Below, piece by piece: positions 1 to 34,370 of a DNA stretch of 40,170 nucleotides. Source of the stretch: Kangiellaceae bacterium (GTDB lineage: Bacteria; Pseudomonadota; Gammaproteobacteria; Enterobacterales; Kangiellaceae); NCBI GenBank assembly GCA_026196875.1, contig JAPHTP010000007.1, forward strand, positions 1-40,170. Direction: 5' to 3'. The position numbers and the translations under genes are program-made. Each line of letters begins with the position of its first letter. Within the stretch, counting starts at the first letter, position 1. The notes beneath the pieces were generated by a model. It worked only from the letters and a program-made list of their open reading frames with translations. It did not search any database and was not told the origin of the DNA.

Positions 1-225
1 AAAGTAAGCGTACTTTTGTTTGGCATCAATTTTAAATACATTAACTGCGTTGCCTTTGGAATCAAAATTAAATTCTTCTCCGGTGAGTCCCGAATATCGG
101 TGGCCAAGTGGGGAAACGTTGCCTTCATCGGTGTACAGGTAACCGAGCATCTGATCAAATGAGCGGTTTTCTAACATTAACACAACGAAGTGTTCTATTT
201 TAGATAACTGAGAATCGCTAGACAT
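1..225 (-). CDS. Phosphoesterase family protein (phospholipase C / acid phosphatase type), 3' part outside window
   Basis: The first 75 codons of a gene that runs off the left edge. The N-terminus carries HFVVLMLENRSFDQMLGYL, the signature of the bacterial phosphoesterase family that includes phospholipase C and AcpA-type acid phosphatases; in that family the Glu-Asn pair binds active-site metal. Members hydrolyse phosphodiesters or phosphomonoesters and are usually exported, but no signal peptide is visible here: the motif starts about 10 residues after the start. I chose ATG at 225 over ATG at 231 because AAGGA (232-236) lies six bases before 225 but directly abuts 231. The substrate cannot be told from this part. 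The gene lies downstream of the DUF2608 gene on the same strand, with a likely terminator between. Confidence 0.8.
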   Translation of the reverse strand, partial: MSSDSQLSKIEHFVVLMLENRSFDQMLGYLYTDEGNVSPLGHRYSGLTGEEFNFDSKGNAVNVFKIDAKQKYAYF

Positions 226-240
226 AATCATTCCTTTTTA

Positions 241-283
241 AATTAATAAAATCGATTAGCACCGCTTAACCAAAAGCTAATCG
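241..283 (-). terminator. Probable Rho-independent terminator after the DUF2608 gene
   Basis: A perfect 8-bp inverted repeat, CGATTAGC (253-260) and GCTAATCG (276-283), with a 15-base loop. Read on the minus strand it is followed by the T-rich tract ATTTTATTAATTT. It lies 114 bases beyond the DUF2608 stop codon and just before the ribosome binding site of the phosphoesterase gene. The long loop makes the call moderate. Confidence 0.5.
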
Positions 284-308
284 ACTAAAACTAACAAATT
301 CAGAAACC

Positions 309-392
309 AACCGGTTCAGATTAATCTACTTGGGTTAACCGATTCAGATTAATCAATTCGGATTAACCAATTGTGATTAAACAATCAGGCAA
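309..392. repeat. Six degenerate 14-bp tandem repeats
   Basis: Units start at 309, 323, 337, 351, 365 and 379. The clearest are aaccggttcagatt, aaccgattcagatt, aatcaattcggatt and aaccaattgtgatt. Alternate units match best, so the array can also be read as three 28-bp units. It fills the space just downstream of the DUF2608 stop codon. A very similar wording occurs in inverse orientation upstream of the BlaI-type gene (18954-18998). Function unknown. Confidence 0.75.
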
Positions 393-396
393 TTAC

Positions 397-1374
397 CTAG
401 TTAAAAGCAGGTTTCAGTAATTCACTCTGCAGGGTGGATTTTATTGCCCGCCAGCGGTTTTGCGCATTTTGCTGCAAGGTATTGGCTTTATCTCCCTCAG
501 TTAAAGCGGCTTTGTGTTTTTGTAAAGCCGTATAATGAAGTGCGGTAACTTGATAATGTTGTTTATCTTTAAAAGCCTGGTAAACGTCTTTTACGTTCGC
601 CAAAGTGTCGTCGATAAAAACAATATTTTTTATTTTCCCTGAATCTGTCCTGGCTAACAGGCATTGCAACATCTCTCCCTTATTCTGTCCGGCAACATAC
701 ATTACACCCTGTTGGTAACTCAACGGGCGTGATGCGTTGCAGTCGGCCGGTTGAAAAGGACTGGCGATACTGGCGATTTGACTTTTCTTGCCTTTCAACG
801 CGTTTGAGTTAATCAGATCTAAAAAGCTTTCGTCGGTCGTTGTAGATTGTTTTACAGATAATTCTTTTACCGCCAACTTTGAGAACTGACTGGTGGTTGC
901 CGATAGGTTGCTGCTACCCCGTGCGGTGAGTACCAGTAACTTAACTCCGGACTGAGTAAGCTGGCCGAGGATATGTGGAATTCTTTTCTCGGTATACACC
1001 ATATTATTCATCGCCAGTAACAGCGCAGCGATATCAAGTAATTCCTGCGAGTTATCGGCAACTTTATATTTTGATTGGGAGTTTAATAGATCTTGCTGCC
1101 AGCTGTACCAGGCCGGACCTCCTAAATACTGGCAGGTTTTTTCTTTCTTTTGATGCGGACAACTCATCATTGTAAGCGTATCATCGTCATCCATTACCAC
1201 CAAAGTGTGGGCTAGTTGTTCGCTTCCTAATTGATTAACTATTTTGTGCAGCTCTTTAAAGCTTTTTACCTTGGAAAGATTTGCTTTTGCTTCAACATTG
1301 TCGTTAATTATCGTTACGTTCAGTAATAGAATAGCGAGAAAAAAAAGAATTTTTTGCATGGTGTTCTCTAACAT
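397..1374 (-). CDS. DUF2608 family protein, HAD-like phosphatase fold, exported
   Basis: A 325-residue protein with an N-terminal hydrophobic signal segment (about residues 7-19) and the ordered HAD motifs: D62-D63-D64-D65-T66 (DxDxT), LLVLTARG around T150, a lysine near 232 and IDD at 255-256. This matches the DUF2608 family, known mainly from Legionella and other gammaproteobacteria, whose members are predicted periplasmic phosphatases of unknown substrate. An open frame extends to 1458, but that extension is made only of a 14-bp tandem repeat. ATG at 1374 has AGGAG eight bases upstream and is the best start; ATG at 1359 (MQKILFF) is an alternative. The downstream gene encodes a phosphoesterase, so a joint role in phosphate scavenging is possible, but that is inference. 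Confidence 0.75.
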   Translation of the reverse strand: MLENTMQKILFFLAILLLNVTIINDNVEAKANLSKVKSFKELHKIVNQLGSEQLAHTLVVMDDDDTLTMMSCPHQKKEKTCQYLGGPAWYSWQQDLLNSQSKYKVADNSQELLDIAALLLAMNNMVYTEKRIPHILGQLTQSGVKLLVLTARGSSNLSATTSQFSKLAVKELSVKQSTTTDESFLDLINSNALKGKKSQIASIASPFQPADCNASRPLSYQQGVMYVAGQNKGEMLQCLLARTDSGKIKNIVFIDDTLANVKDVYQAFKDKQHYQVTALHYTALQKHKAALTEGDKANTLQQNAQNRWRAIKSTLQSELLKPAFN

Positions 1375-1474
1375 AAGTTGTTCTCCTGCGTACATTCTCA
1401 TACGTACACTCTCCAATGTTCTTGCTCCAATGTGCCTTCTCCAATGTATGCGCTCCAAGATAGATTTTCTAACG
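1363..1474 (-). repeat. 14-bp tandem repeat array containing repeated Shine-Dalgarno-like cores
   Basis: Read on the minus strand, about eight 14-base units precede and overlap the DUF2608 start. Three are nearly identical: cattggagaaggca, cattggagcaagaa and cattggagagtgta. They are flanked by more degenerate ones, cgttagaaaatcta, tcttggagcgcata, cgtatgagaatgta and cgcaggagaacaac. GGAG or a close variant recurs at the same phase in each unit. The GGAG of the unit at 1377-1390 is the likely ribosome binding site for ATG 1374. Confidence 0.8.
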
Positions 1475-1548: not shown

Positions 1549-4500
1549 CTATTGCGCCGTATAGTAAGGGCGTCGCGCAATATAGGATTGATGTTCCGGG
1601 AACATGGCGATATAAAACTCGCTCCAGCCGCCCTGTCTGACTCTAACGAGATCGTATTTCTCCGGATAAACAAGTGACTGCTGATAGGTATCAGGATCTG
1701 CGGTTGTTACGGTGAGCAAATTGGAACCGATTTTCCCATCGGCGAAGCTTCGGATCACACCTTTCATATCGCTGACAGAAAAGTCTTCATCGATGTTAAT
1801 GTCAACCGGGGAAGCGTTGGAAAGTCCAACATTAATCGATGGCACGTTCCAGTCGTCCAAGCTTTGATAAATATTATAAGGAGTTGTTTGTGGTGGCATA
1901 TCCGATGGGCTCGGCGCTGCGCAAAAATCATCGGCTATAGGATCGCCGGATAAGCGACCGTCTGGAGATGCGCCCATACCTAACCCTAAACCGAGGTTAT
2001 CTTCGAAAGTGCCTACTCCCGGCGTTACCGTAAAGGCAAACTCTCTATCTTTAAGCCGATATTTTTTCTTGAGTTTATCGTAAGATTTTTTAACAGAAGG
2101 GATCGGATCATCAATGCCGTCGCGAATAATTTTCACGCATTTGCCAACAACTTCATCGGCAAATGCTTTAAGCTCATCGCATTTTCCTTCGCCAAATTTG
2201 GGGAGCGCAAGTGCAGCCTGGCGCAGCTCTTTATATCGATGGGCATTGGCTTCTGCGCGTGCTTCGCCGGCAAATTCATTTTGGAAAGGCTCGATCATAT
2301 TTTCACCCCAGTCATTCCAAAGTGCTTGCAAAAGCTCAGGTAAAGTTGTGATTGCCGTTTTTTGCTCAAATACTAGTTTTTTGATCACATAAAGAGAGTT
2401 AATTGCGTTAGTAATGCCACACATCATCGGTGCTACAATATGATATTGGGCTCCGCCGTTACTCATATCCTTACCGGACTCCATGCAGCCGTCTGTCATA
2501 GATGAAAACAGCGGGCTGGGGCAGACGTTCCACAAAGCACCATAGCTATTCATTAAGGTATTGTAGAACTGGCTGATAAGCCATTTATACTGAGTGTAAA
2601 AAATGTCCATAAATTTTTTGAAACTCTCGATGCTTTCTGGAGGTGGAGAATTCCAGCCGGTTTTTAAACCACGCAAATGTACCCAGCCTGCACCTGCAAT
2701 GGTTGCTCCCTGGTTCATCGCCATGCCAACCACAGGTAAGATAGGAACATAACTAAAAGCCCATTCGCTTTTACCCCCAATGATGGGTTCGTAGCATCCG
2801 TCACAAACATAATCCCGAGCGTCGCCAATTTTGAGTGGACCGCTGGCAGCTAATCCTTTGGTGAGTTTGTCATCGTTCATTAGTATCGGGTGAGCGCCGC
2901 CTGAGAGAATTGCCTTGGCTGCTTCATCAAAGATTTTTTTGTGGATGGGCTTATCCATTTTGCCATGGACTCTTAGCGATAGGCAGGGCGCATTTAACGG
3001 TAAACGCCGGGCTGCTCGCAAACAAAGTAAAGTGACTTGATTGCAGCCGTCTTTTGGCGTTTTGGAATTTGTAGGTAAATAGCCGCCCACCGTTACTTGT
3101 TGAACCCACTGATTTAGCGCCGAGCCTTGTGGGAAGTTACCCGCTGAATAAAATACCGCTCCGGTGCCGTAAGTCAGGTAGTCTTGCATATGCTGGCGGT
3201 TGTAGAGGACAGTCTCGTCCATCTTCAGCCAGAAAGCGTCGATGATTTCTTGTGCGCCTTTTTCACTGAGCTTACCCGACTTGATGTCTGTGCGGTAGGC
3301 GTCAATTAAATACTGATCAAGCCGGCCGATTGACATAGGCTCGCCCGTTTGGTGAAGCGCGCAGTTGATGATAAAAATAAGTTGCAGACTTTCGAGCATT
3401 CCCTTGGGTTTTTTATGGGCAATTCTTTTCATTCGTTTGGCAACGTCACGGTAATTTTGTTTTTCTTTTTCCGCAGTTGCCGGGGTAGATTCGGCTAGTT
3501 TTTTGGCAAGCTCGGCATAGCTTAAAATAAAATCCTGCAATCCTTCCAGAGCCCAAATAACTGATTGGTAAAACTCTTTTGGTTCGCTCTTGGTACCTTT
3601 AAGTTTTTCCTGAGCTTCTTCAAGTAAGCCGTCTACGCCAACTTTTAGAACTTTACGATAATTGGGGACATTATGGCCGGTGGCGGAGTACTCGTTAAGC
3701 ATACCAAAAAATGCTTCAATTTTTTCGTCTTGGTTTAAATATTCCATCACCTGTGTACCACTACCCAGGGTCAGTGGCGGCATATTGCCGACTATCAATT
3801 CGTGCGGTTTAATATTGTGTAGGCCTGCTTTTTCGCGGTAAATGTCTCTTTGCAATACGTCAGATAAACTGATCTTGATTGCCAAACCTTTACGTAGTGC
3901 CGCGGACTTAGACTTGCCGAATTTTTTGTATTTTTTCCATTGAGGTTCCTTTAAATGATCTTGTAGATGTCCCAACGAAGGCATGGTTAATTTCTTTTCC
4001 CAGGTATCATTCCACTGGCTAAAGGTTTGTCCAAGCAACAGCATTATTCTGTCGCTAAATTCTGCACCATCGGTTCTCAGCTGCGCCTGATGGAGAAAGT
4101 CCCTGTTGTTATAGTACATTAAGCCATTTCGGCTGCGCAGGTCATAATAATCATTTAATGGCACATCGACGTGGCCTTTTGGGCCAGAAAGTTTTAAATG
4201 CTTGGCGGAGGGAACAAACCAAAAGTTACCGGAAACCGCATGGGTATTGCTGAGCATCTTGTCTTTAATAAAACCCTTGTCAGGGCCCACAATGTTTTGA
4301 ATTAATTCTTCATATACATCGCCGCTGTTAGCATAAGCAACAAAATAAACGCCTTCCTCTTTGCCTTTTCCATCCGGTGTGTGGCCGTAGGGAAGTGCTT
4401 GTCTTAAGATACGTTGTGTCACTCGCTCGCCATTTAATTGGCGCACACATTTAATATGGCTTCTATCATCTTCCATTGGAATAATGGCGTCGTCGCCATT

Positions 4501-5148
4501 ACGTCCAATCATGTTTTCTTTTTCTATCATGTTCATATCATCAAGCTGCGCCCAATTGTGTTTGAACTTTTGCTGGATAACATAGGCTGACCCGCGATAA
4601 TAGCGATCTTCCTCACCGACAATTGCGCGATCGGATAAATTTACCTGATCTACAGGGTTTATCATGGCATCAATAAAACGACCACCGAAAACTTTACCTC
4701 CGTGCATTTTATGCGCCGCGGTGTTGATATATTTATCGGTGACAGGTTTTAATGCTTTGATAATTGCGTCGAGGATTTTTTTGCAGGCTTTTTCGCTGTC
4801 TCCTTTAATATGAAACCAAAGGTCACCTCCGCTATTCACAAAGGGTTTTTGGGTGAGTTGTTGATGGCCTGTTGTGCCTTTGGGTAATGGCATTTTGTAG
4901 GTTCGGCACCATTCTGCCCATAGTTCATAGTCCACGCCGCGAACGCAAACGACTTTGTAGTTTTTATCGGCGCAAAGCTTGTCAGTGATTTGAGCAACTT
5001 TTAGCCATAACTTATAAAGTTCACTTTTGTTGCCTTTCAAAAAAAATGTAGCGAAATGTCCATATACAGGAAAGTCCGCAATACCTTTTTGGCCAAAATT
5101 AATATTGATTTTTTCACTGCGGGCTTTGGGTTTTCGATTGCGAGTCAT
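1549..5148 (-). CDS. DyP-type (YfeX-like) haem peroxidase fused to a glycyl radical enzyme (pyruvate formate-lyase-like)
   Basis: A 1199-residue two-domain protein. Residues about 15-330 resemble the E. coli YfeX class of dye-decolorizing peroxidases: GGRFIDAMINP (catalytic Asp160), SHIKCVR (probable haem-ligand His231), RILRQALPYG (distal Arg249) and GNFWFVPSAKHL. The usual GxxDG reads IDA, so one glycine is replaced. From about residue 455 the protein is a glycyl radical enzyme: GHNVPNYRKVLKVG, the active-site YVCDGCYEP with Cys785, IGSNLLTV, and C-terminal RVRQGGWSEFY with the probable radical Gly1174. Glycyl radical enzymes need a radical-SAM activase; none is encoded in this window. ATG 5148 is preferred over GTG 5154 because AAGGAG lies eight bases before 5148. 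There is no signal peptide, so it is cytoplasmic. The substrate is unknown; this is not an ordinary formate acetyltransferase. Confidence 0.88.
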   Translation of the reverse strand: MTRNRKPKARSEKININFGQKGIADFPVYGHFATFFLKGNKSELYKLWLKVAQITDKLCADKNYKVVCVRGVDYELWAEWCRTYKMPLPKGTTGHQQLTQKPFVNSGGDLWFHIKGDSEKACKKILDAIIKALKPVTDKYINTAAHKMHGGKVFGGRFIDAMINPVDQVNLSDRAIVGEEDRYYRGSAYVIQQKFKHNWAQLDDMNMIEKENMIGRNGDDAIIPMEDDRSHIKCVRQLNGERVTQRILRQALPYGHTPDGKGKEEGVYFVAYANSGDVYEELIQNIVGPDKGFIKDKMLSNTHAVSGNFWFVPSAKHLKLSGPKGHVDVPLNDYYDLRSRNGLMYYNNRDFLHQAQLRTDGAEFSDRIMLLLGQTFSQWNDTWEKKLTMPSLGHLQDHLKEPQWKKYKKFGKSKSAALRKGLAIKISLSDVLQRDIYREKAGLHNIKPHELIVGNMPPLTLGSGTQVMEYLNQDEKIEAFFGMLNEYSATGHNVPNYRKVLKVGVDGLLEEAQEKLKGTKSEPKEFYQSVIWALEGLQDFILSYAELAKKLAESTPATAEKEKQNYRDVAKRMKRIAHKKPKGMLESLQLIFIINCALHQTGEPMSIGRLDQYLIDAYRTDIKSGKLSEKGAQEIIDAFWLKMDETVLYNRQHMQDYLTYGTGAVFYSAGNFPQGSALNQWVQQVTVGGYLPTNSKTPKDGCNQVTLLCLRAARRLPLNAPCLSLRVHGKMDKPIHKKIFDEAAKAILSGGAHPILMNDDKLTKGLAASGPLKIGDARDYVCDGCYEPIIGGKSEWAFSYVPILPVVGMAMNQGATIAGAGWVHLRGLKTGWNSPPPESIESFKKFMDIFYTQYKWLISQFYNTLMNSYGALWNVCPSPLFSSMTDGCMESGKDMSNGGAQYHIVAPMMCGITNAINSLYVIKKLVFEQKTAITTLPELLQALWNDWGENMIEPFQNEFAGEARAEANAHRYKELRQAALALPKFGEGKCDELKAFADEVVGKCVKIIRDGIDDPIPSVKKSYDKLKKKYRLKDREFAFTVTPGVGTFEDNLGLGLGMGASPDGRLSGDPIADDFCAAPSPSDMPPQTTPYNIYQSLDDWNVPSINVGLSNASPVDINIDEDFSVSDMKGVIRSFADGKIGSNLLTVTTADPDTYQQSLVYPEKYDLVRVRQGGWSEFYIAMFPEHQSYIARRPYYTAQ

Positions 5149-5621
5149 AATCACGTCTCCTTGTGAGTGGAGTTTTTCTGGGGCTAGAGTTTTTATTATT
5201 AAAAATAATCATAGTCGCTATTTATTTGTATTGAGGATTAACTTCTATTTTATCTCCGGGTGTAATTCAGAAGATTAATATTGTCCGAATTTTGAAAAGA
5301 AAATCAGGCAAGTAAATAAAGTTGTGTGGCATTGATAGTTTTTGAGATGAACTTATCGGACATATTAAAAGTATTTATTCCTTTCTCAAGTTTCGGGGGG
5401 AGGGGGAGAGGTAGGCTGGGCGTGGGGACTGTATACAAGGCCGGTGTGATTCAAGGAGAGGTAGATGGTAATCTTTGTTAGAAAATCTCTTCTCTTTTTA
5501 TTTGACATTTATTTCACATTTCAACTGCTACCTTGCCATTATTCGGCCAATGGAAAGAACAGTTATGTGAGTCCTTAATTTAGGCTAGTATCGACTCATT
5601 CATAAATTGAGAGGATAAATA
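5149..5621. other. Long intergenic region with a possible promoter and a G-rich tract
   Basis: This divergent spacer lies between the peroxidase/glycyl radical gene (minus) and the small lipoprotein gene (plus). It contains a consensus -35 hexamer TTGACA at 5502-5507, but no good -10 is seen at the usual distance. It also holds a guanine-rich block at 5395-5427, listed separately. I see no convincing coding sequence, RNA gene or inverted repeat in the rest. Confidence 0.5.
5395..5427 (+). other. Putative G-quadruplex motif
   Basis: Runs of six, five, three and four guanines are separated by loops of 1, 11 and 3 bases (G6 at 5395, G5 at 5402, G3 at 5418, G4 at 5424). This stands out against an AT-rich spacer. 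It lies about 250 bp upstream of the peroxidase/glycyl radical gene start on the other strand and about 195 bp before the lipoprotein gene. Confidence 0.5.
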
Positions 5622-11788: not shown

Positions 11789-12160
11789 CTAGTTGGGTTT
11801 TTTAGCCGGTTGCAATAGCGAGTCAGTTTTGGCCGCGCAGGTAAACTCGGACCGCTGGAAGCCTTTGGGTTTTTCGCTTAACCATTTTACAGTCACACTA
11901 CTTTTGGATATTAAAATGACGGGTTGGTGCAACTGCTTTTTTGATAGCTCGAGAATTCTATCGCTAAAATCTACGGCGTCTTCTTCTGAATTAAAATAAT
12001 AAGTTCGTTCCAGACGCAGCTTATCAGCACTTTGTTTTATACGCCACTCCGGCAATTCTGCGATTAATTGCAGCAGCGCTTGTCCATTGAGCTCGAACAC
12101 ACTTCTACCTTCATCGATAGCAGTTTTGGGAGGCGCGGGAGTCTTAGTTGATTTGCTCAT
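11789..12160 (-). CDS. Pterin-4a-carbinolamine dehydratase-like protein with altered active site
   Basis: A 123-residue protein whose residues about 20-115 align with pterin-4a-carbinolamine dehydratase (PCD/DCoH), including LPEW, FS.RI.EL and the KGF...F.CAAKTD end. Compared with the paralogue at 15377-15757, the catalytic His-His-Pro reads His78-Gln79-Pro80, and the later catalytic histidine is glutamate (Glu96). Two of the three histidines expected for dehydration of 4a-hydroxytetrahydropterin are therefore missing. It may have another role, as the DCoH family also acts in protein binding. ATG 12160 has AGGGG eight bases upstream, better than the TTG at 12187. It lies 13 bases after the GGDEF-EAL gene and is probably co-transcribed with it. 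Confidence 0.75.
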   Translation of the reverse strand: MSKSTKTPAPPKTAIDEGRSVFELNGQALLQLIAELPEWRIKQSADKLRLERTYYFNSEEDAVDFSDRILELSKKQLHQPVILISKSSVTVKWLSEKPKGFQRSEFTCAAKTDSLLQPAKKPN

Positions 12161-12173
12161 TAAGCCATCCCCT

Positions 12174-14567
12174 TTAACTGCTAACAACCAGTTTGATATA
12201 GCTGTTGGTCTTTTTACTATCTTTGTGACAAAAGTGGAGTGTTAATAGTCGCTCAAAATCCTCTGAGTTGATTGGCCAGGAATATAAGTATCCTTGTCCA
12301 TAGTCGCAGTTGGCTTTGGTTAGAAGTTGTTGCTGCTCTTTGGTCTCGACGCCTTCCGCAATCACTTTTAAGCCAAGTTTGTGGGCCATACTAATCATCG
12401 CTTCGCACAGGGCCAGGTCGCTGGAGTTTTCGGTGAGGTTTCTTACAAATGACTTGTCGATTTTTAGACAATCTATTTTAAATTGGCGCAGGTAGGCTAG
12501 TGAAGAATAGCCTGTGCCAAAATCATCCAGAGCAATTTGAAAGCCTTTTTCTCTAAGATGGTTGAGGTGGTAGTTGGTAGATTTTCTCGACTCCATAAAA
12601 AGACTCTCAGTTATTTCAAGAGTTATGCTGCTAGGAGACATCCCTAATTTCTCAACTTGATCTCCCCAGTCCAGAAGTTGGGTGCTCCTAAATTGAACAG
12701 GAGAGACGTTAATACTCATTCGTAATTTGTTAGAGTAACTTTGTTGCCAGATTTTTAGTTGCTTAATTGACTCTTGGAATACCCACTCTCCAACAGGAAT
12801 GATTAACTTGGTTTCTTCAAGTGCCGGGATAAACTTATCAGGGCTAATTAAACCCAAGGTTGGATGTTGCCATCGGATTAACGCTTCAATTTTTTCTATT
12901 TCACCGCTTTTTTGGTTGACTATGGATTGATAGTAAAGCTCGAATTGTTCCTCGTTAATGGCAACTCTTAAATCACGAATGAGGCTCATATGGTCAATAG
13001 CGTCCTGTTGCATTTTACTATTGAAATAGCAAAAACGCCCTCGGCCTAAATTTTTGGCTTCATACATTGCCTGGTCTGCCTGTTTGAGTAGTTCTACCGG
13101 GTTACTCGAATCATTTGGGCAAACCGAGATGCCGATGCTAGCAGATATAATGACTTGCTCGCTCAAATCAAAAGGAGCCCGCAGGCAAAGCAGAATTCTA
13201 TTAACTACAAGGTCGATATTTCGTTGTTGATCACCACAATCCAGAATAACTACGAATTCGTCGCCACCAAGTCGGCCTAATGTATCTGTGCTTCTCAGGC
13301 TGCTTTTAATTCGCCTGGCGACTTCAACTAGCAATTGATCACCTTGGTCGTGACCCATGGTGTCGTTGACATTTTTAAAGCCATCTAAGTCAATTAATAG
13401 CAGCGAAAATGGGCGACCGCTACGTTTGCTTGCAGCTAAGGTGTCTTTAAGGCGGTGATGGAAACAGCGGCGATTTGGCAATCCGGTCAAGAAGTCAAAA
13501 TTCGCCTGATGCCACACTTCGCGCTCTCTTTCCTCGAGTTTCTTGTTAGCGCTTCTTAGTCTCAACTGGTGATAGCCTAAGATAATTAAGATTAGGCTAG
13601 CTATCGCCGCGAATTGTAAGAGTCTGTTGTAGTCTTCGGCAATATCATAGCGAACCGTAAGCCAATAGTTTTCAATACGTTTTCTCTGTTCGATTGATAC
13701 CGAGGCAATTGCCTTATTTAAAATATCTTTAAGTATCGGGGATTGCTTTCTAACGCCGATCCCAAGTTCGATGGTAGATAGTTCATCGAAGCCGCCATTA
13801 ATTTTTAAATCGGTGTAATTTTCTACTTGAATCGTATACCCGGCCAAATGAAGGCCACTTAAATAGCCAAATAATTCCCCGGTTCTTACCATTTCAAGGC
13901 CCTGGGTACGATTTTTAACTTCGACCAGGTTAATTTCGGGATACTTATTTCTAAGGAGGTCGACATAGGCGTACCCCTTGTGTACACCCAGTCTTTTCTC
14001 CTTAAGCCCATCCAATTTGGACAGGAAGAATTTATCTTGAGTGGTAACAACTACAAACGGGATCTCAACAAATGGCTCGGTGAATGTTAAGTATTCTTCC
14101 CGTTGAGGGGTTTTTGCTGCTAGCGAAATCATGTCGCAGCGACCGGATTTAACTGATAACAGAGATTGATTCCAGCTCGTAGTATCCATTATTGAGATTG
14201 GTTTTTCGATTAGATTACTGAACAATTTGATGTATTCAGCGCCAATTCCAATATGATTACCTTCTGAAATGGCATCAAGTGGCATGGAGCTGGGATCAAC
14301 ACAAAGTCGGATTTTATCGATTGATTGCAAGAAGGCCCTTTCTGTCGAAGTGAAATTTATCTTGGCGGATGCGAGAACCAAGCTTGGAGTAAGAGAGAAA
14401 ATTAGTGCGATTACACAAACGACTCTAAATAGTATTTGAACTAGATATTGAATTACTTTTGAGACAGGCGTTAATCGAACTCTAGTTTTAGTTCGATTGA
14501 AGCTTTTATCTTGATTCGACAAAAAGTAATTCACCTGATACTCCGACTTCCTGAATTTGATAATCAC
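12174..14567 (-). CDS. Periplasmic-sensor GGDEF-EAL protein (c-di-GMP cyclase/phosphodiesterase)
   Basis: A 797-residue membrane protein. A signal anchor (about 45-65) is followed by a solute-binding-protein family 3 domain (about 85-305) in the periplasm, a transmembrane helix (about 315-331), and cytoplasmic GGDEF then EAL domains. Diguanylate cyclase residues are intact: GGDEF at 434-438, with the inhibitory RxxD site (RSTD, 425-428) five residues before. The phosphodiesterase domain also looks complete: EALIRW (561-566), DDFGTGYSS (681-689) and AEGVE. Both activities are therefore possible, with net direction set by the ligand bound outside. GTG 14567 with GGGGA six to seven bases upstream is the best start. 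The orphan FixJ-type regulator gene lies just upstream on the same strand, and a carbinolamine dehydratase-like gene follows 13 bases after. Confidence 0.92.
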   Translation of the reverse strand: MIIKFRKSEYQVNYFLSNQDKSFNRTKTRVRLTPVSKVIQYLVQILFRVVCVIALIFSLTPSLVLASAKINFTSTERAFLQSIDKIRLCVDPSSMPLDAISEGNHIGIGAEYIKLFSNLIEKPISIMDTTSWNQSLLSVKSGRCDMISLAAKTPQREEYLTFTEPFVEIPFVVVTTQDKFFLSKLDGLKEKRLGVHKGYAYVDLLRNKYPEINLVEVKNRTQGLEMVRTGELFGYLSGLHLAGYTIQVENYTDLKINGGFDELSTIELGIGVRKQSPILKDILNKAIASVSIEQRKRIENYWLTVRYDIAEDYNRLLQFAAIASLILIILGYHQLRLRSANKKLEEREREVWHQANFDFLTGLPNRRCFHHRLKDTLAASKRSGRPFSLLLIDLDGFKNVNDTMGHDQGDQLLVEVARRIKSSLRSTDTLGRLGGDEFVVILDCGDQQRNIDLVVNRILLCLRAPFDLSEQVIISASIGISVCPNDSSNPVELLKQADQAMYEAKNLGRGRFCYFNSKMQQDAIDHMSLIRDLRVAINEEQFELYYQSIVNQKSGEIEKIEALIRWQHPTLGLISPDKFIPALEETKLIIPVGEWVFQESIKQLKIWQQSYSNKLRMSINVSPVQFRSTQLLDWGDQVEKLGMSPSSITLEITESLFMESRKSTNYHLNHLREKGFQIALDDFGTGYSSLAYLRQFKIDCLKIDKSFVRNLTENSSDLALCEAMISMAHKLGLKVIAEGVETKEQQQLLTKANCDYGQGYLYSWPINSEDFERLLTLHFCHKDSKKTNSYIKLVVSS

Positions 14568-15376: not shown

Positions 15377-15757
15377 CTACTCAGAGAGCTTGGATGTTAA
15401 TTGAAGGTAAATATTGTCTGATTTTGCCGCACAAACAAAATCGTTCTTATGCAGTCCCTTAATTTTATGGGTCCACCAGCGAAGGGTCACTTTGCCCCAT
15501 TCGGTTAAAACTGCCGGGTGGTGATTTTCTTGCTCAGCAAGTGCTCCAATGCGATTAGTGAAATCTAACGCTTCGATAAAATTCTTGAATTGATAGTTTC
15601 TCAGGAGTTGAAGAATACTGTGTCGTTCCACAATCTCCCATTCCGGCAATTGAGATAACAGCTGGCTGGCTTCATCTCTTTCTATTTTTGGGGCTCCGAC
15701 TTGACATGCTTCGCAAGTTTGGGAAGATAAATTACCCGCGTCTATTTGATTAGTCAT
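15377..15757 (-). CDS. phhB: Pterin-4a-carbinolamine dehydratase
   Basis: A 126-residue protein with the complete PCD/DCoH signature: ENHHPAV (His79, His80, Pro81), then WWTHKIKGL with His97 and a closing CAAKSD. The enzyme dehydrates 4a-hydroxytetrahydrobiopterin, regenerating the pterin cofactor of phenylalanine hydroxylase, or serves in folate-like pterin metabolism. The first 25 residues are an extension before the usual domain start (EASQLLSQLPEW) and include CEAC. ATG 15757 has AAGGAAG close upstream. No phenylalanine hydroxylase gene is in the window. A paralogue with a broken active site lies 3.2 kb downstream on the same strand, so this copy is the likely active enzyme. Confidence 0.9.
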   Translation of the reverse strand: MTNQIDAGNLSSQTCEACQVGAPKIERDEASQLLSQLPEWEIVERHSILQLLRNYQFKNFIEALDFTNRIGALAEQENHHPAVLTEWGKVTLRWWTHKIKGLHKNDFVCAAKSDNIYLQLTSKLSE

Positions 15758-33289: not shown

Positions 33290-33721
33290 ATGAAAGAGCA
33301 AGCAGCGTTGCAAAATACGCTTCCTCACCAAATTCAAATTGACAAAGAAAATAATTTGGCGACGCTGACTTTTGTTGGGCACATTGGCATCAAACAATTT
33401 GCTGACAGTTTTTCAGAGTTGATAAGGCATAAAGATTTTGTTCAGAATATGAATGCCTGTTATCGACTGGAAAATGCATATGTTGATTTAAATATAAACG
33501 ATACAGAGATCCTTTTTCATTTTGCCGCGGGGATGCGCGACAAAAGAGGTGACCAATACCAACTCGCATTTGTTTATAAGGACGAAATGACAAAAATGCT
33601 AGTTGAGTTTTATCGGTTGTTTTTGGTCAGAACAGATATAGAAGTTTTAACCACTCCAAGTATTCAAGAAGCACAAAGTTGGCTTATTCACTCTCACGAG
33701 CCGACGGTTGAGCAACTCTAG
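33290..33721 (+). CDS. STAS/SpoIIAA-like small protein, paralogue 1
   Basis: A 143-residue soluble protein of uncertain family. It shows alternating beta strands and helices: a first strand pair (QIQIDKENNLATLTFVGH), helix (IKQFADSFSELIRHKDF), strand (MNACYRLENAYVDLN), helix, strand (QLAFVYKDEM) and a closing helix with QEAQSWL. This layout resembles the SpoIIAA-like (STAS/SEC14) fold, but no defining motif is present. A clear paralogue is encoded 239 bases downstream (FADSFSELIRHKDFVQNMN against LDQTFIALIEHPDFFYNIN). The start is six bases after the adenosyltransferase stop. No known B12 enzyme looks like this, and no function should be assumed. Confidence 0.6.
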   Translation: MKEQAALQNTLPHQIQIDKENNLATLTFVGHIGIKQFADSFSELIRHKDFVQNMNACYRLENAYVDLNINDTEILFHFAAGMRDKRGDQYQLAFVYKDEMTKMLVEFYRLFLVRTDIEVLTTPSIQEAQSWLIHSHEPTVEQL

Positions 33722-33959: not shown

Positions 33960-34370
33960 GTGGCCTATTCAGATAAGAATAATCAACCGAATAATTGCAA
34001 GATAACAATAAATAAAACAGGACGCTTTGCCGACATTAGTTTTTATGGGGGCGTAACCAAAGAAGCGCTTGATCAGACTTTTATTGCGCTAATTGAGCAT
34101 CCCGATTTTTTTTATAATATTAATGCCCTCTATGACTACTCCGACGCTCAACCCGACATTGAAATGTCTGATATAGAGGAACATTCCCATTTCGTTGCTG
34201 AGCATTTATACCTTCGTGGCAAAGATTACAAACTAGCCATGGTGGCTACCGATACCTTGTCACACGCGCTGTTACAAGTGTATAAGCTGTTAATTTCCAA
34301 AACTCCGGTCGAAGCGGAGGTATTCAATCGAAGAAAGGATGCCATTCTTTGGTTGTTATCCGAAGATTAG
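33960..34370 (+). CDS. STAS/SpoIIAA-like small protein, paralogue 2
   Basis: A 136-residue protein with the same strand/helix order as its neighbour: KITINKTGRFADISFYGG, helix ALDQTFIALIEHPDFF, strand INALYDYSDA, helix, strand KLAMVATDTL and final helix DAILWLL. The paired Asp/Tyr stretch YDYSDAQPDIEMSD replaces the corresponding residues of paralogue 1, so the two have diverged considerably. The start is GTG 33960; AAGGAG is found upstream but 11 bases away, which is long. It has its own spacer of 238 bases and lies just before the riboswitch-controlled B12 genes, so it is probably transcribed separately from them. The function is not recognised. Confidence 0.6.
   Translation: MAYSDKNNQPNNCKITINKTGRFADISFYGGVTKEALDQTFIALIEHPDFFYNINALYDYSDAQPDIEMSDIEEHSHFVAEHLYLRGKDYKLAMVATDTLSHALLQVYKLLISKTPVEAEVFNRRKDAILWLLSED

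Follow-up and report, generated by a model that had tools for sequence, protein, structure and literature searches.

We studied a window of 40,170 nucleotides (the whole stretch of DNA analysed) of a Kangiellaceae bacterium genome, i.e., positions 1 to 40,170 of contig JAPHTP010000007.1. The focus is a minus-strand gene that joins a DyP-type haem peroxidase to a glycyl radical enzyme (GRE) of the pyruvate formate-lyase-like (PFL-like) type. The coordinates are collected in Table 1. The first-pass annotation had read both enzymes from one chain of 1199 residues, and a single frame indeed holds both domains. An alternative GTG start at 5154 would extend the frame to 1549-5154 (1201 residues); residue numbers given below refer to the 1199-residue version, which starts with ATG. 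Promoter and terminator scans gave signals at or below chance level.

Both halves are identified by sequence and fold. Pfam finds Dyp_perox_C at residues 158-316 and PFL-like at 481-1009 of the window protein (PF02901, E 6e-106), and the N-terminal part scores above the NCBIfam cut-off for Dyp-type peroxidases. In a PDB sequence search, the N-terminal part finds DyPs and the C-terminal part glycerol/diol dehydratases as well as choline trimethylamine-lyase. The AlphaFold model (13 sequences as input) is weak, with a predicted local distance difference test score (pLDDT) of 60. A fold search with this model matches DyPs at about 22..321 and GREs at about 355..1187. The N-terminal half has the DyP fold, and the homology of the C-terminal half to the PFL-like barrel of GREs is supported by PDB sequence and fold matches.

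We identified 15 relatives in a scan of genome contigs; by record title, they come from alpha-, beta- and gammaproteobacteria and one planctomycete. In 12/15 the fusion is one full-length open reading frame (ORF). The remaining three are broken near the C-terminus (L009), split into two overlapping ORFs (L013) or run off the contig end (L014). All three are metagenome-assembled and would fit an assembly or annotation artefact, i.e., two genes wrongly joined. Such an artefact is ruled out by the 12 intact single ORFs, five of which are in records not titled as metagenome-assembled genomes (MAGs), and fungal genes of the same design are in print; we give it practically no weight. The fusion is a real, long-lived two-domain enzyme.

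Next to the window protein, the alignment A1 contains the twelve intact relatives (13 fusions; L009, L013 and L014 left out), which are 52-84% identical to it. Asp160, His231, Arg249, Cys785, Glu787 and Gly1174 are invariant in 13/13. The first-pass annotation had named an assembly error and the loss of key residues as what would refute the fusion, and neither is borne out. Two remoter, plasmid-borne relatives are an Asticcacaulis fusion (32% identity) and an unfused Hymenobacter GRE (36%). Cys-x-Glu is kept in both, and so is the Gly, here within R-M-G-G-W-T-E. Identity to the window protein is 25-80% for the DyP half and 36-86% for the GRE half, i.e., the DyP half is diverging faster. The fusion is rare among sampled genomes. 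With the centre genome included in each case, it is found in 2/398 Pseudomonadota, 3/40 of the genome's own family and 1/392 Planctomycetota, such that the 392 Planctomycetota genomes give no fusion besides the centre one.

Within the peroxidase half, all 13 fusions have the haem-ligand His231 together with the distal Asp160 and Arg249; we take the roles of these residues to be those generally known from DyPs. GxxDG is the usual DyP motif. It had been noted that the window protein reads IDA instead, which is correct (F-I-D-A). Among the relatives, the residue after Asp160 is variable (A, G or P), with Gly in only some of them. The Pfam model of the Dyp N-domain matches just 2/13 fusions, and those weakly.

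For the GRE half, PF02901 matches 13/13 fusions. A profile alignment puts Cys785 on the active-site Cys of E. coli PFL, YbiW and PflD, and Gly1174 on the radical Gly of E. coli PFL and YbiW. We infer that the C-terminal half would use a thiyl radical on Cys785 to abstract hydrogen, with Gly1174 in support. GREs carry their radical glycine in a C-terminal RVxG[YF] motif, in contrast to R-[QM]-G-G-W in the fusions. The Pfam Gly_radical model has no match in the window protein and weak ones in 2/13 fusions (E<=0.1). GGW in place of G-Y had been taken as a hint at an adapted mechanism. The reading itself is correct, but GGW is present in every relative readable there, down to 32% identity, including L009 (in another frame) and L013, both with GGWSE. 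It therefore marks a subfamily and not the window gene alone, which rules out a special adaptation of this one gene. Judged from the aligned sequences, a GRE subfamily is recognised by R-[QM]-G-G-W-[ST]-E.

We then searched the fusion genomes for the activase. Known GREs have a cognate PflA-type activase. In its own genome, the fusion is the only PFL-like gene. TIGR02494, which models GRE activases in general, reaches its cut-off in 0/16 fusion genomes (own genome and 15 others), with matches below cut-off in 14/15 of the others. Among control genomes, it is over cut-off in 3/14, the same number as give a PFL-like match. Each of the own genome's 19 radical-SAM matches was scanned, and none is over the cut-off of the PflA, NrdG or YjjW models. 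The set comprises NirJ, RimO, MiaB, MoaA, HemW, HemN, MtaB, BioB, LipA, a PA0069-type protein, RlmN, YgiQ, EpmB, QueE and AmmeMemoRadiSam, besides proteins without assignment (see below).

Similar results are observed for Oceanospirillum beijerinckii, which has an intact fusion (L015). No PflA, NrdG, YjjW or AmmeMemo type was found among its 23 radical-SAM matches, for a genome whose completeness is not reported. Here, 14 proteins were covered by profile scans or by both routes, and the other nine only by BLAST matches to named own-genome proteins. The NCBIfam scan of this set used E 1e-25, while the unnamed proteins, L082, L068 and three own-genome proteins were scanned at 0.001. An activase is a feature of GRE activation and not of the fold, so its absence lowers the chance that the protein works like a classical GRE but not its homology. 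The suggestion of a GRE without a classical activase thus gains indirect support from the lack of TIGR02494-, PflA-, NrdG- and YjjW-type matches over cut-off, which is no proof of it. In the own genome, the proposed check for an activase gene returned none of canonical type over cut-off, with AmmeMemoRadiSam and one unassigned protein, L038, as candidates.

Further evidence concerns the coupling of the two enzymes. On the Hymenobacter plasmid, the ORFs of the GGW-type GRE are followed, after an 11-bp gap, by a separate gene annotated as Dyp-type, whose product matches the Pfam Dyp N-domain (3e-13). The GRE and DyP frames of this one case both look interrupted, so it is either a pseudogene pair or affected by sequencing errors. 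We consider this unfused pair and the occurrence of the fusion across a wide taxonomic distance as signs of DyP-GRE coupling. The trees of the two domains have 6/11 splits in common, including the deeper ones, while some of the splits that are not common have support >0.9. This is consistent with co-inheritance at the deeper splits and not with full congruence. Finally, W379, W383, W681, W947 and W1175 do not vary among the 13 fusions or in the Asticcacaulis and Hymenobacter proteins. At the same five positions, YbiW/PflD show V/T, gaps, L/gap, F/F and Y/Y, in an alignment that is uncertain outside the conserved core. These subfamily tryptophans could carry a hole from the haem to the barrel.

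Table 1. Features of the window, of related loci and of the own genome discussed in the text. Domain boundaries are approximate.
Feature	Position	Strand	Basis or remark
DyP-GRE fusion gene, 1199 residues	1549..5148	minus	open frame from ATG; relatives; alignment
DyP-type haem peroxidase domain, about residues 17-325 (Asp160, His231 haem ligand, Arg249)	4174..5100	minus	Pfam/NCBIfam/PDB, fold, invariance
GRE (PFL-like) domain, about residues 345-1191 (Cys785, Glu787, Gly1174 in R-Q-G-G-W-S-E)	1576..4116	minus	
DUF2608 protein with HAD-type DDDDT motif	397..1458	minus	Pfam; follows the fusion at 90 bp
Hymenobacter plasmid: GGW-type GRE (two ORFs), separate DyP, PLD-like gene, HAD-annotated gene	L096:8019-14056		
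RHVEAHPN proteins with signal-like N-terminus, betaproteobacteria	L005:11753-13036, L006:5627-6910, L008:11705-12991, L013:13536-14843		
Own-genome AmmeMemoRadiSam gene (L017, L098)	G000:C136:7259-8305		MEMO and AMMECR1 partners
Own-genome radical-SAM protein L038, 436 residues	G000:C138:3244-3612		weak viperin match

The genes beside the fusion were compared for the 15 loci with downstream sequence. L014 was left out because it has none, and L058 because its radical-SAM match lies at the same coordinates as that of the L007 genome, such that we took both as the same assembly. In six loci (window, L002, L003, L004, L007, L015), a DUF2608 gene of HAD type follows the fusion by 50-147 bp. PF11019 matches 6/6 of these proteins, and the MDDDDT, LTARG and DDT blocks are invariant in 6/6, which fits the known catalytic motifs of HAD proteins. 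A PDB search found no relative. The window's copy has a hydrophobic N-terminal stretch (by inspection, a putative export signal). We predict an HAD-type, phosphatase-like protein.

In the betaproteobacterial loci, a protein with an RHVEAHPN motif is encoded by the next gene (L005, L006, L008) or the next but one (L013). For the L005 protein, neither Pfam nor NCBIfam gives a match, and a profile of the four sequences gives only chance-level results against the PDB (E 0.08 to a glutamate receptor). The motif, read by eye only, looks histidine-phosphatase-like. PF04185 genes flank the fusion on both sides in L012 (the upstream one at 5 bp) and follow DUF2608 in L002, L003 and L004, where the L002 protein resembles plant non-specific phospholipase C. 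The Pfam score of the HAD-annotated Hymenobacter gene is below cut-off. Altogether, in 11/15 loci the fusion has a phosphatase-like or phospholipase-like gene as its immediate or second neighbour, a plain count without a chance expectation. No such gene was recognised in L009, L010, L011 and L016, where not every neighbour was scanned. These neighbours are a hint at a substrate that bears phosphate or is released from it.

Some observations lie aside from this. The Asticcacaulis fusion (L095:4631-10729) is preceded by SUMF1/EgtB-type and DUF2278 genes according to the record annotation. Elsewhere in the window, two similar-looking small genes (11789-12187 and 15377-15757), which by eye resemble pterin carbinolamine dehydratases, are found near GGDEF/EAL-like and response-regulator-like genes. 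Two adjacent small proteins that look paralogous (33290-33721 and 33960-34370) stand beside a cluster that by eye is cobalamin-related.

Our reading of the fusion is a GRE-type lyase whose start needs no classical activase and may come from the fused haem, which we hold tentatively and with less than even confidence. The radical would be started by the fused haem domain and not by a PflA-type radical-SAM activase. Here, H2O2 would yield a ferryl/porphyrin radical at the haem, and the hole would move via the subfamily-specific tryptophans to Cys785/Gly1174. The substrate would probably be a small alcohol or phospho-alcohol, processed jointly with the phosphatase or phospholipase encoded nearby. 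Radical transfer, the direction of the chemistry and the substrate are what we infer. In the boldest form of this reading, which we rate as unlikely, the haem peroxidase would use H2O2 to trigger thiyl/glycyl radical chemistry in the barrel to which it is fused (in Hymenobacter: adjoining), and GRE chemistry would run in micro-oxic or aerobic cells without a radical-SAM activase. Glycyl radicals are destroyed by O2, and DyPs do not remove it, so the system may work with H2O2 present and O2 low. NirJ in the own genome (haem d1 synthesis) suggests denitrifying capacity.

The protein might instead be a conventional GRE that is activated by an unrecognised radical-SAM protein, most likely AmmeMemoRadiSam or, in the own genome, L038, while the DyP may act as the guard suggested in the first-pass annotation, removing peroxide, or may perform a separate oxidation. 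We regard this main rival as somewhat improbable, close behind our own reading. AmmeMemoRadiSam is a distant PflA relative. The own-genome protein (644 bits to TIGR04337) has the strongest PFLA match among the radical-SAM proteins (62 bits), followed by QueE (45), RlmN (34) and L038 (25), where the cut-off is 232 bits. AmmeMemoRadiSam is found in 11/16 fusion genomes (10/15 others and the own genome) compared to 99/396 sampled Pseudomonadota without the fusion (one-sided Fisher test, p 0.0004; the two fusion genomes were taken out of the background). Within the own family, it is present in 3/3 genomes with the fusion vs. 5/37 (p 0.006). The enrichment is nominally significant, but neither test allows for kinship between genomes or for incomplete MAGs, and genus is a confounder in the family-level comparison. 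Furthermore, AmmeMemoRadiSam is present in 101/398 Pseudomonadota, 99 of which are without the fusion, and TIGR04337 is absent from Oceanospirillum beijerinckii and from four metagenome-assembled fusion genomes. It also has partners of its own: MEMO and AMMECR1 adjoin it in 4/5 genomes inspected (own genome and G006 by Pfam, G003 and G007 as tblastn homologues; none found in G010), while tblastn of the fetched flanks of the fusion loci found no AmmeMemoRadiSam gene. Given its absence from Oceanospirillum and its place beside these partners, we rejected it as a proven activase. An AmmeMemoRadiSam protein B is named in a fungus, not as an activase (PMC12235711). L038 is a further candidate activase in the own genome by its sequence and slightly favours a radical-SAM start there, but Oceanospirillum beijerinckii shows no L038-like protein.

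A third reading is that the halves act on successive steps of one pathway, or that the GRE-fold half has given up the glycyl radical. The DyP would then be a plain peroxidase, with the fusion serving only to channel an intermediate. The missing canonical activase would fit this, as would the unusual radical-site motif that the Gly_radical model mostly misses, the faster divergence of the DyP half and neighbours that suggest a hydrolytic pathway. Yet, the radical machinery retains its Cys, Glu and Gly without exception down to 32% overall identity, which would be difficult to account for had the radical been lost. We regard this reading as quite unlikely.

Several points weigh against an activase-free start. 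To our knowledge, every characterised GRE uses a radical-SAM activase. The activase absence is negative evidence, and 14/16 fusion genomes were searched with TIGR02494 and TIGR04337 only, without the PFLA, NrdG and YjjW models. Among the 15 other fusion genomes, nine are titled as MAGs or metagenome bins. In the own genome, four radical-SAM proteins (L030, L031, L032, L038) have no assignment over cut-off, and the same holds for four such proteins in Oceanospirillum (L077, with L031 as best BLAST match, L081, L082 and L089). L038 has weak matches to NrdG2 (8e-6), PFLA (1e-5) and NrdG (3e-4), and the occurrence of AmmeMemoRadiSam, the O2 sensitivity of the glycyl radical and the inability of DyPs to remove O2 count on the same side. 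With regard to the haem half, the Asticcacaulis fusion has Glu at the Asp160 position and retains both the haem-ligand His and the Arg. PflB likewise has W at the W383 position, and the AlphaFold model is too poor to give a path from the haem to Cys785. Furthermore, a putative PFL activase is described in the fungus Chaetomium (PMC5041501).

The first-pass annotation left open whether the architecture had been described. It is not new but in print since 2016, when Chaetomium cochliodes dyprx was presented as a DyP-PFL fusion with N-terminal DyP and C-terminal PFL (PMC5041501). The same account places the fusion in other prokaryotes and eukaryotes too, infers a transfer from proteobacteria to ascomycetes, cites an earlier report as Strittmatter 2014 and calls the significance of the fusion elusive. 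It gives a 3-fold increase of the dyprx transcript by H2O2 and an 18.5-fold increase by peroxyacetic acid (PMC5041501). Gene g1956 of Xylaria grammica has a similar DyP and PFL-like design (PMC8469222, 2021). No function test of the fusion protein was found in the published accounts, in a search with subscription papers partly and preprints wholly outside its scope. Not found there either are the activase gap in bacteria, the unfused form with adjacent genes, the phosphatase-like neighbours and the signature of the subfamily.

A GRE subfamily that comes with a haem peroxidase, retains its radical residues and occurs in genomes without a standard activase found over cut-off would reveal a second way of starting the radical, or would give AmmeMemoRadiSam, a little-understood PflA relative, a job. 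As far as we know, all characterised GREs depend on an oxygen-sensitive radical-SAM activase and are confined to anoxic chemistry. An oxygen-compatible GRE, if true, would matter for biocatalysis.

Compared to known systems, the window protein follows the DyP-PFL design, i.e., an N-terminal DyP and a C-terminal PFL in one reading frame. Fungal and bacterial fusions are likened by design only, not by sequence. As far as described, they differ in that Chaetomium has the putative PFL activase (PMC5041501), whereas the bacteria have none of canonical type over cut-off. With Rhodococcus DypB and Shewanella TyrA, the N-terminal half has the fold and the positions of haem-ligand His, distal Arg and Asp in common, while it differs by F-I-D-A-M-I-N instead of GxxDG and by being joined to a GRE. 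Ala251 of the fusion presumably stands where DypB has Asn246. Class I ribonucleotide reductase delivers a radical from its metal site to a distant cysteine. It is a mechanistic parallel only, as the fusion is proposed to pass a radical from its metal/peroxide site to a remote cysteine of the barrel; no homology is claimed, and a difference is that the fusion retains Gly1174. E. coli YbiW and PflD of the glycerol/diol-dehydratase group have the GRE barrel, the Cys-x-Glu loop and the aligned Gly in common with the C-terminal half, which is 27% identical to YbiW in the profile alignment. In contrast to the fusion subfamily, they have no DyP domain, RVAGYS instead of R-x-G-G-W-S/T-E, and annotated activase genes adjoining (ybiY, pflC). 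The YbiW gene also adjoins the sugar phosphatase gene ybiV, just as the fusion often adjoins a phosphatase-like gene.

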